Assembly: GCA_023250585.1 (NCBI GenBank)
Contig: JAHFAK010000133.1
Span: 1-5,107 of the forward strand
DNA length: 5,107 bases
Source: Deltaproteobacteria bacterium
Lineage (GTDB): Bacteria; Bdellovibrionota_F; JAHFAK01
Reading direction: 5' to 3'
In this document: in pieces, positions 1,446 through 5,107 of the stretch
Layout: every line of letters begins with the position of its first letter
Position numbering within the stretch: position 1 is the stretch's first letter
Notes under the pieces: generated by a model
Databases searched by the model: none
Seen by the model: only the letters and a program-made list of their open reading frames with translations
Told to the model about the DNA's origin: nothing
Program-made: the position numbers and the translations under genes

Positions 1446-2438
1446 CAATGTAATCTTTTTGTCACTGCTAATACATATATGAAAGATACTTCTTTTTGGA
1501 ATAAGATTGTACTCTTCTTTGGCCGTAATTACCTCGCGGGTAGTTCACTCGAAGAAGGCTATGAGACAATTAAAAAATTTCATGCGCTCGGACGAAAATC
1601 TACGTTTGATATTGTTGGAGAAGATTCGCATACTCTCAAAGATGCTGATGCAATTTTACATACATATAAACAAATAGCAGATGATTTTTATGCGGAATAT
1701 GGAGAGGAAGATGTTGTATCTATTTCATTAAAACCGACAGGAATTTGTGCGGTGAATAGGCATACGTTTTTACCCGAGACACCTCTCAATGAACGTCTCT
1801 ATGCGTATGGTGCATATGCTTCTAAAAAAGGTAAACGAAAAATTAGCCTCGATATGGAAGATAGTAATTATACTGATGCATCAATTGAAGCTGTCCGATA
1901 TTCTTGGCGGAAGGGCGTTCCTATTGGATTGGTTTTACAATCACGACTTAATAGAACTGAGCACGATATAGACACAATTTTTAGTGAAAATTATCCTATC
2001 CCACGACATCAATTACGCGTTCGGATTGTTATTGGCGTTTACGTTGAACCTGAAGATATTGCAACCAATGATCGCCAAAAGGCAAAAGAGAGACTTGTCG
2101 ATCGTGTAGGACAATTATTTGATAAGGGAGCCTATGTAGAAATTGCTACACACGACCCTGATATTATAGATCGAATTATTAATGAAATTATTATTCCTCG
2201 TAATATTTCTCCCGATAGATTTGAGTTTCAATTCTTGAAAGGGGTGGAAAATGGATATATGATTGAAAAAAAAGTAATGCGACGAGGATATACCGTACGA
2301 TATTACTTAGGAATAGAACTCAAAAAATTTGCAAGTGTACCTTATATAAAAAGGAGACTCAGTAATAATCCTGCTTTTATAAGGCATGGAATAAAAAATA
2401 TATGGCAACAAATGATTAACTTTTTTACGGGTGAATAG
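1374..2438 (+). CDS. proline dehydrogenase-like protein with N-terminal signal peptide
   Basis: The 354-residue product matches the single-domain proline dehydrogenase (PRODH) barrel, which oxidises L-proline to pyrroline-5-carboxylate with FAD. Recognisable blocks are FDIVGE (78-83), SISLKPTG (116-123), SLDMEDS (158-164), GLVLQSRLNRT (185-195), ATHDP (258-262), RFEFQFLKGV (282-291), GYTVRYY (305-311) and IKRRL (325-329). These resemble the Thermus PRODH, and the expected substrate residues are kept: Lys120, Asp160, Tyr223, Tyr311, Arg327 and Arg328. The usual VKGAY block reads VIGVY (219-223), so the FAD-site Lys and Ala are changed. Residues 1-24 (MKYLK, then a hydrophobic run, then VYS before Gln25-Cys26) look like a signal peptide or anchor, which is unusual for this normally cytoplasmic enzyme; QC is not a proper lipobox. 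No pyrroline-5-carboxylate dehydrogenase is adjacent. The stop codon overlaps the next gene's GTG by one base. The fold is confident; the proline substrate is inferred. Confidence 0.85.
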   Translation: MKYLKLIFGLIILLQIGHYSRVYSQCNLFVTANTYMKDTSFWNKIVLFFGRNYLAGSSLEEGYETIKKFHALGRKSTFDIVGEDSHTLKDADAILHTYKQIADDFYAEYGEEDVVSISLKPTGICAVNRHTFLPETPLNERLYAYGAYASKKGKRKISLDMEDSNYTDASIEAVRYSWRKGVPIGLVLQSRLNRTEHDIDTIFSENYPIPRHQLRVRIVIGVYVEPEDIATNDRQKAKERLVDRVGQLFDKGAYVEIATHDPDIIDRIINEIIIPRNISPDRFEFQFLKGVENGYMIEKKVMRRGYTVRYYLGIELKKFASVPYIKRRLSNNPAFIRHGIKNIWQQMINFFTGE

Positions 2439-3253
2439 TGAAAAATAAAGAAACTGTCATTGCGAGCGAAGCGAAGCAATCTTTAGTAAAAGATGCGAGA
2501 TTGCTTTGCCTTCTTCGAAGGCTCGCAATGACACTGATTTTAGTCTTCTCCTCTTCCCCTCTTTTTGCTGATGAGGCTGCTCTACTTTTTACAGCTCATA
2601 AACAGTATGAAGCGGGCCATTATGAAGAAGCCCTGAAAGTCTATACAGAAGTTGCTCAGACAATACCGAACGGGCATGTGTACTATAATATTGGCAATTG
2701 CTATGTTCGACTGGGTGAAATTGGCAAAGCTCTTTTTTATTACAAAAAATCGCAAAGGCTTATCCCTTATGATCCTGAACTTATCGCCAATATCAACTAT
2801 GTACGTGGGTTAACTAAAGATACAATTGACCGTCAGAGCTTTGAGTCTATTTCACAAAAGCTCTTTTTTTGGTATTATGTTTTTAATTTCAAAACACTGA
2901 TTAGTATAACAATTATAATTAATTTTTTATTTTTTCTCTTTCTGTTTTTGAGATATTTAAAAATAAATAATGAATATCTTTCCTGGATTTTCTATGTACT
3001 TTTTATTTTGAATCTCATCTTTATCTCAACGAGTGCAGTTAAATATTACGAGGAATGCGTAATTAAAGAAGGCGTTGTAATTACGGACGAAATTGATATA
3101 CGTTCAGGTTTTGGAATTACGAATTCAGTTCTATTTAAACTTCATGCAGGAGCTGAATTTAATCTCCTTGAAGAAAATGATGGTTGGGTTAAAATTGAGC
3201 TTACTGACGGAAAAAAAGGCTGGGTTTCTACAAAGGATGTCATATATGAATAG
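2438..3253 (+). CDS. BatE-like protein: signal peptide, TPR, two membrane segments, SH3b domain
   Basis: A 271-residue envelope protein. In order: a basic and hydrophobic signal sequence (about 22-44, probable cleavage LFA|DE), two tetratricopeptide repeats (about 48-81 and 82-115, with the typical YNIGNCYVRLGEIGKALFYY core), two hydrophobic membrane helices (about 153-171 and 181-199), and a C-terminal bacterial SH3 domain (about 207-270, ending DGKKGWVSTKDVIYE). This TPR-TM-TM-SH3 order is that of BatE proteins from aerotolerance (Bat) operons, though no other Bat gene is seen here. TPR and SH3b modules bind proteins or wall components, so a scaffold role in the envelope is inferred. The GTG start shares its G with the preceding TAG stop, which suggests translational coupling. 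Residues 6-32 are encoded by an inserted palindromic repeat. ATG 2528 is an alternative start, but it would leave the signal peptide without its basic residues. Confidence 0.75.
   Translation: MKNKETVIASEAKQSLVKDARLLCLLRRLAMTLILVFSSSPLFADEAALLFTAHKQYEAGHYEEALKVYTEVAQTIPNGHVYYNIGNCYVRLGEIGKALFYYKKSQRLIPYDPELIANINYVRGLTKDTIDRQSFESISQKLFFWYYVFNFKTLISITIIINFLFFLFLFLRYLKINNEYLSWIFYVLFILNLIFISTSAVKYYEECVIKEGVVITDEIDIRSGFGITNSVLFKLHAGAEFNLLEENDGWVKIELTDGKKGWVSTKDVIYE
2455..2533. repeat. dispersed palindromic repeat (EAKQS-type) inside the coding region
   Basis: This 79-bp imperfect inverted repeat has outer arms TGTCATTGCGAG (2455-2466) and CTCGCAATGACA (2522-2533), and inner arms AAGCAATCT (2474-2482) and AGATTGCTT (2498-2506) around a 15-base centre. 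The right half carries its own hairpin, GCCTTC-TTC-GAAGGC (2508-2522). The sequence is of the widely distributed 'gtcattgcgagcgaagcgaagcaatct' type found as many copies in several bacterial lineages, comparable to REP or Rickettsia palindromic elements. Read in this frame it gives VIASEAKQS...LLCLLRRLAMT, the peptide typical of such elements when they land in genes. It is the only copy in the window. ACTG flanks it on both sides (2453-2456 and 2533-2536), possibly a short target duplication. Confidence 0.9.
3232..3236 (+). promoter_or_regulatory. rng: Shine-Dalgarno that fixes the RNase G start
   Basis: AAAGG lies nine bases before the ATG at 3246, inside the end of the TPR/SH3 gene. The frame is open upstream to ATG 3093, and a second ATG at 3237 overlaps this site. 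Only 3246 has both the spacing and an N-terminus (MNSLIISAKKHETRVALIEN) typical of RNase E/G proteins. Confidence 0.7.
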
Positions 3254-4822: not shown

Positions 4823-4850
4823 TTTTCATTAAAATATGATAGACTATAAT
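4823..4850 (+). promoter_or_regulatory. sigma70-type promoter for the small NHLP-like gene
   Basis: A perfect -10 box TATAAT (4845-4850) lies 16 bases after TTTTCA (4823-4828), a four-of-six match to the -35 consensus. Transcription would begin near 4857, giving a leader of about 20 bases that holds just the ribosome binding site. This gap (4749-4876) shows no convincing terminator after rng, so read-through from the upstream cluster is also possible. Confidence 0.65.
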
Positions 4851-4862
4851 TGTAACCAAAAG

Positions 4863-4868
4863 AGGAGG
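4863..4868 (+). promoter_or_regulatory. consensus Shine-Dalgarno of the small protein
   Basis: AGGAGG ends eight bases before ATG 4877 and is followed by a second purine stretch, AAGAGG. It is the strongest ribosome binding site in the window and suggests high translation of the 76-residue product. Confidence 0.85.
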
Positions 4869-4876
4869 AAGAGGTT

Positions 4877-5107
4877 ATGTCAAAAGTAAAAATTCTTCAG
4901 GTTATCAAACGAGCGCTCGACGACTCGGATTTTGCAAACAATCTATACGCTAATCCTGAAAAGGCTTTGCGTGGTTTTAATCTTTCTTCGCATGAAATTG
5001 ATCTTATTAAAAACATGCGAGGTGATTCACTGGAAAAGTTTGCATTCGAACTCGAAGATCGGCTTAATAAAGATGACGATTGGTGGATTGGATCGCTACA
5101 AGATTAA
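4877..5107 (+). CDS. small NHLP/Os1348-like protein, possible RiPP precursor
   Basis: A complete 76-residue acidic protein ending at the window's last base. It shows the pattern of nitrile-hydratase-leader-like (NHLP clan, Os1348-type) peptides: an amphipathic helix ending DDSDFANNLYANPEKAL (about 15-30), then GFNLSSHEIDLIKNM (33-47), then an acidic helix (50-64) and a short tail NKDDDWWIGSLQD. The D-x-x-F...L...P-E-x-A-L-x-G-F-x-L-x-x-x-E signature is also shared with LigA-type dioxygenase small subunits, so the fold is better supported than the function. NHLP leaders often precede a core peptide made into a RiPP; here the only core candidate is the last ten or so residues with the WW pair, and no Gly-Gly cleavage site is present. 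It has no cysteines, signal peptide or membrane segment. Its own promoter and a perfect AGGAGG suggest separate, strong expression. Partner genes would lie beyond the window. Family assignment is from memory of the motif. Confidence 0.6.
   Translation: MSKVKILQVIKRALDDSDFANNLYANPEKALRGFNLSSHEIDLIKNMRGDSLEKFAFELEDRLNKDDDWWIGSLQD

Follow-up and report, generated by a model that had tools for sequence, protein, structure and literature searches.

The 5,107-nt window (the whole stretch of DNA analysed here, which is contig C71 in its entirety) ends in an open reading frame on the forward strand (4877-5107; ATG at 4877, TAA at 5105-5107) that encodes a 76-residue protein of the Os1348 type within the NHLP clan. 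On balance, and with only a little more belief than doubt, we regard it as a stand-alone Os1348-type protein that likely serves as a docking or regulatory module and binds its partner in trans. Arguing for this reading are the score against the family profile, the Os1348 crystal structure as top match, the lack of YcaO, LanC-like, PqqD and C39 genes, the single copy, the setting of the homologue in the only related genome, the fusions of the domain to proteins that are not precursors, and a tail that is kept between homologues of one genome pair. Against it stand the location of Os1348 itself in a putative modification cluster and the occurrence of some homologues beside radical SAM or HEXXH genes.

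Assignment to the family is carried by the NCBIfam profile NF038399 (Os1348 family NHLP clan), against which the protein scored 52.5 bits and passed the cut-off of 40, residues 8-63 (4898-5065, forward strand) aligning to model positions 5-62 of 63; by this profile score it is a genuine family member. A phmmer search against the PDB returned the crystal structure of Os1348 (6LK7; E 6e-4, residues 4-62) as the sole meaningful sequence match, and the influenza polymerase PA chains found in the same list (E 0.3-0.9) were dismissed as chance. The sequence-only reading had noted an NHLP-like signature, which the profile score and the 6LK7 match bear out, but the protein falls with the Os1348 family and not with the classical NHLP leaders, whose profile TIGR03793 gave 15.3 bits, below the cut-off of 50.9. 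The Pfam family Frankia_peptide (PF14407) was matched at 34.5 bits (E 2.5e-8), below its gathering score of 48. Profile searches had been advised for both the NHLP/Os1348 and LigA families; the Os1348 profile was matched above its cut-off, and for LigA (PF07746) there was no Pfam match at E up to 10.

The AlphaFold2 model, built from 20 homologues (pLDDT 73.7), contains five predicted helices (residues 3-15, 17-25, 27-30, 38-46 and 49-65), the last of which ends at residue 65. Its top fold match was 6LK7 (Foldseek probability 0.99, E 0.1), which also ranked first in a VIA comparison with the model (Z 6.4 over 63 residues). The matches that follow Os1348, namely borosin methyltransferases and precursors, the LigAB-type dioxygenase DesB and a proteusin precursor, are no stronger than might be expected from a common arrangement of helices. 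The C-terminal tail DDDWWIGSLQD (residues 66-76; 5072-5104, forward strand) lies outside the family domain and is predicted to be disordered, with pLDDT below 50 at residues 66-68 and 71-76; its 11 residues include two Trp and one Ser but no Cys or Thr. The tail described earlier, NKDDDWWIGSLQD, is indeed present, but only D66-D76 extend beyond the Os1348 domain. As claimed from the letters alone, the 76-residue product of 4877-5107 is acidic (pI 4.9, with 15 acidic against 11 basic residues), and it lacks Cys and Thr throughout.

We picture the protein as a compact five-helix domain followed by a short, flexible, acidic tail with two Trp; the small helical domain would dock onto or regulate a partner protein in trans, and the WW tail may make contact with that partner or be no more than a flexible end. 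Leaders of the NHLP type fold into domains and engage their enzymes through protein-protein interactions (PMC12455567), and it is from the action of these leaders, from SonA (PMC8429565) and from fusions of the domain to enzymes that we infer docking as the function.

The source genome (2.24 Mb in 164 contigs, 97% complete) is accompanied in the collection by only one further genome of its phylum, G001. The stop codon of the open reading frame is the final codon of the contig, and since the contig ends at 5107, the sequence 3' of the gene is unreadable; the last 26 nt had no other occurrence in the genome when overlapping contigs were searched for. The upstream neighbour, which lies outside the system, encodes a ribonuclease G/E (Rne/Rng family, TIGR00757; 3249-4748, forward strand) and is separated from the gene by 128 nt. 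Upstream of the gene, the window holds no GNAT, HEXXH or SagB-type genes, a search of the window against Rfam matched no RNA element, and no Os1348-like open reading frame was found at any of seven RNase G loci of named relatives.

A Shine-Dalgarno sequence, AGGAGG (4863-4868, forward strand), lies 8 nt 5' of the ATG. Within the last 20 nt, this motif arises in 0.05% of dinucleotide shuffles of the 128-nt gap, and owing to this rarity the translation signals are convincing, in agreement with the perfect AGGAGG reported before. The promoter is plausible: a sigma-70-like pair on the forward strand (4823-4850) combines TATAAT (4845-4850) with a poor -35 element, TTTTCA (4823-4828), at a spacing of 16 nt, and its 10/12 matches are at chance level for an AT-rich gap, being attained in 11% of the shuffles. 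Across the window, 22 promoter-like sites were observed against 18.9 expected, which is no excess. The promoter is weaker than the near-consensus one claimed previously, and the strong expression claimed with it is conjectural.

Other features of the window are recorded here for their own sake. An inverted repeat (cattgcgagcgaagcgaagcaatc...) with outer arms at 2440-2467 and 2521-2548 and an inner pair at 2471-2482 and 2498-2509, occupies the start of an open reading frame at 2438-3253 (TPR plus SH3), and its 24-nt core occurs seven times in the 0.66 Mb of the genome examined. The TPR/SH3 gene more likely starts at the ATG at 2529, giving the signal-peptide-like MTLILVFSSSPLFADEA, in which case the start codon would come from the inverted repeat. 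The preceding frame (1374-2438) encodes a proline-dehydrogenase-like protein (PF01619, 57.6 bits) that reaches 100 bits against the nearest NCBIfam equivalog, the cut-off of which is 500, and that carries a hydrophobic, signal-like N-terminus unusual for a proline dehydrogenase.

Genes for maturation enzymes were sought throughout the genome. No YcaO, LanC-like, PqqD or C39 peptidase gene was detected genome-wide in this 97%-complete assembly, and the only SPASM radical SAM gene lies on a different contig (C75), where its neighbours are an MFS transporter and a two-component system and the stretch examined contains no Os1348-like open reading frame. The family is represented by a single copy, and no paralogue bearing another tail was found in the genome. 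A graspetide reading was also considered and rejected: RimK-like matches occur on contigs C113 (among ordinary-looking genes), C89 and C160, with no Os1348-like gene on the stretches examined. A crude motif scan of 0.66 Mb, or 30% of the genome, detected no tetrapyrrole-methylase-like gene. For this genome, a role as RiPP precursor is unsupported rather than excluded, and we infer that the organism does not use the 76-residue protein as a peptide precursor.

Of 386 genomes sampled, 34 contain the Os1348 family at E up to 1e-4, 19 of them above the cut-off. No close orthologue was confirmed in plasmids or among genome contigs (55 candidate stretches), and among 59 relatives the protein matched itself, a homologue in G001 and a C-terminal domain in G025 (33% identity across residues 5-64). 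The G001 homologue, of about 96 residues, is weak by sequence (E 0.003) and has a different tail, but it matches NF038399; it is encoded in a housekeeping neighbourhood, between lepA and a gene for a 348-residue protein without a Pfam match. A 20-member alignment holds over the domain, as far as about residue 65, and breaks down in the tails; the aligned homologues, being 17-36% identical to the protein, are too distant for the conservation of its own tail to be judged. A closer comparison is afforded by the related genomes G060 and G201, in which a stand-alone homologue is identical at 65 of 72 residues (28 of the codon changes are synonymous and 7 non-synonymous) and retains six of its seven tail residues, the adjoining cyclase-domain proteins being 68% identical. 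In this one genome pair the tail of the stand-alone homologue is retained under purifying selection, unlike a variable core. The G060 protein had no homologues in plasmids or phages, and the G088 protein none in plasmids.

Elsewhere, the domain is also found fused to larger proteins. In G025, G172 and G310, an Os1348-type domain ends open frames of about 980 residues (L061, L060 and L059, respectively), and the visible part of the G025 fusion resembles a molybdopterin formate dehydrogenase, as read from its translation rather than from a profile search. A second, weaker Os1348-type match was seen at each of these loci, in a frame of 229-287 residues a few kilobases off. Radical SAM genes adjoin homologues in G241 and G315, and genes with a HEXXH motif do so in G131 and G357. 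At the G241 locus (L049:381-2038), a radical SAM protein with a C-terminal Os1348-type domain is directly followed by a stand-alone Os1348-type frame. An nSTAND/AAA protein at the G357 locus (L041:8541-10839) has as neighbours at least four Os1348-type paralogues in tandem, whose short tails differ; one of the copies carries an internal stop codon.

Several stand-alone members have signalling genes as neighbours. Adenylate-cyclase/TPR proteins adjoin them in G060, G201 (by homology) and G088; a sigma-54 activator with GAF domains in G032; a response regulator and a PocR-domain protein in G063; a SpoIIE phosphatase at the second copy in G060; and a cyclic-nucleotide-binding protein with a HEXXH motif in G131. 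The loci with very large adenylate-cyclase/AAA/TPR neighbours (L037:9769-14308, L038:1376-5983 and L040:1373-7354) come from two lineages of different families, and the two genes are adjacent on the same strand in G060 and G201 and convergent in G088. By our own count, signalling genes make up 7 of 26 immediate neighbours; in a control of 76 further genes from these stretches, the signalling families among the 25 families listed were rare, and no significance is claimed. This neighbourhood is a lead, not a result. It could be speculated, at low confidence, that many stand-alone Os1348-type proteins, including the present one, make up a widespread group of small docking proteins in bacterial signalling that are paired with regulators (adenylate-cyclase/AAA/TPR proteins, sigma-54 activators, SpoIIE phosphatases and cyclic-nucleotide-binding proteins) and are not precursors.

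The sequence-only reading held that the gene might mark a new RiPP cluster. In that case the helical domain would be the leader and DDDWWIGSLQD a minimal core, with its modifying enzymes encoded past the end of the contig or at another place in the genome, which we consider unlikely. Membership of the NHLP clan, the view of Os1348 itself as a precursor (PMC7726476), the radical SAM genes beside homologues in G241 and G315, the HEXXH-motif genes in G131 and G357, the tandem G357 paralogues with their differing tails, and the one SPASM radical SAM gene of the genome are all consistent with it. The idea of a new cluster is nevertheless not supported by the genome, which lacks detectable YcaO, LanC-like, PqqD and C39 genes, bears its SPASM gene on C75 without an Os1348-like frame on the stretch examined, and holds a single family copy; moreover, the scores for TIGR03793 and PF14407 fall short of their cut-offs, and the protein offers no Cys or Thr and a single Ser in its tail. 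A tail rich in Asp and Trp could still be a core for a chemistry that needs neither Cys nor Thr. N-methylation is independent of Cys, Ser and Thr, and a split-borosin precursor would be a protein whose helices form a borosin binding domain and whose tail is N-methylated by a SonM-like methyltransferase encoded downstream. SonA chains do come next after Os1348 among the fold matches (Foldseek probability 0.72; Z 4.4 over 47 residues, rmsd 2.4), and in SonA a core follows a bundle of five helices (PMC8429565). The match, however, is one of fold at about 15% identity, with a Z within the chance range for helical bundles; SonA was not matched by sequence in the PDB search, and the motif scan, which covered 30% of the genome and is weak evidence in itself, gave no tetrapyrrole-methylase-like gene. 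We hold this origin to be highly improbable.

Alternatively, the protein may belong to a redox enzyme, as its partner or as a domain that it once carried: either the C-terminal Os1348 domain of formate-dehydrogenase-like proteins in stand-alone form or a LigA-like small subunit. Such an origin or role is suggested by the G025 C-terminal domain, the only match among the 59 relatives besides the protein itself and its G001 homologue, by the recurrence of the fusion in G172 and G310, and by the presence of DesB among the fold matches. It appears quite improbable given that LigA was not matched in Pfam even at E up to 10, that no such enzyme is encoded within the window, and that the enzyme identity of the fusion partner comes from reading a translation, not from a profile search. 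A stand-alone regulatory protein, which was among the options listed at the outset, is the best fit of these options, with no YcaO, LanC-like, PqqD or C39 gene detected and a single copy in the genome.

The 76-residue gene alone opens no new system, and the protein looks like an ordinary, if uncharacterised, member of its family. As genome-mining tools label the Os1348 family as peptide-antibiotic precursors, we contend that a single-copy member such as this one, from a genome in which the usual peptide-modifying enzymes left no trace and a phylum with two genomes in the collection, is a useful counter-example, which suggests that the fold serves generally as a small module for binding, with leader peptides as one of its uses.

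Several known systems can be compared with the protein. The NHLP leaders (TIGR03793) of proteusin and TOMM precursors (PMC2887384; PMC12455567) are of the same clan and have a similar helical fold, with a short N-terminal match (residues 8-32 of the protein) and 8TB1 among the fold matches, whereas the protein has no core rich in Cys, Ser or Thr, is present in a single copy without detected maturation genes, and scores 15.3 bits, short of the cut-off of 50.9. Frankia_peptide members (PF14407) have been proposed as ATP-grasp-modified peptides (PMC8939145), and the alignment to this family spans nearly the whole domain (E 2.5e-8); the score of 34.5 bits is however under 48, and the ATP-grasp gene of the window encodes an ordinary D-Ala-D-Ala ligase and lies on the opposite strand. 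The split-borosin precursor SonA (PDB 7LTC and others; PMC8429565) shares the arrangement of a five-helix bundle and a flexible tail, but it differs in giving no sequence match and in having a partner methyltransferase that was not seen in the 30% of the genome scanned, and the strength of the match may reflect a common arrangement of helices. Os1348 of Pseudomonas sp. Os17 (PDB 6LK7) lies in a putative modification cluster, affects antibiotic activity, and is followed by genes for an acetyltransferase (GNAT), a HEXXH peptidase-like protein and a SagB-type dehydrogenase; six residues at its C-terminus are disordered (PMC7726476). It is about 25-30% identical to the 76-residue protein, and the place of its three 3' genes lies beyond view here, where the contig ends. 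By profile score both proteins nevertheless have the same domain; they are small and helical and finish in a short C-terminus that is disordered in Os1348 and predicted to be so here, and Os1348 is the best PDB match by sequence as well as by fold.
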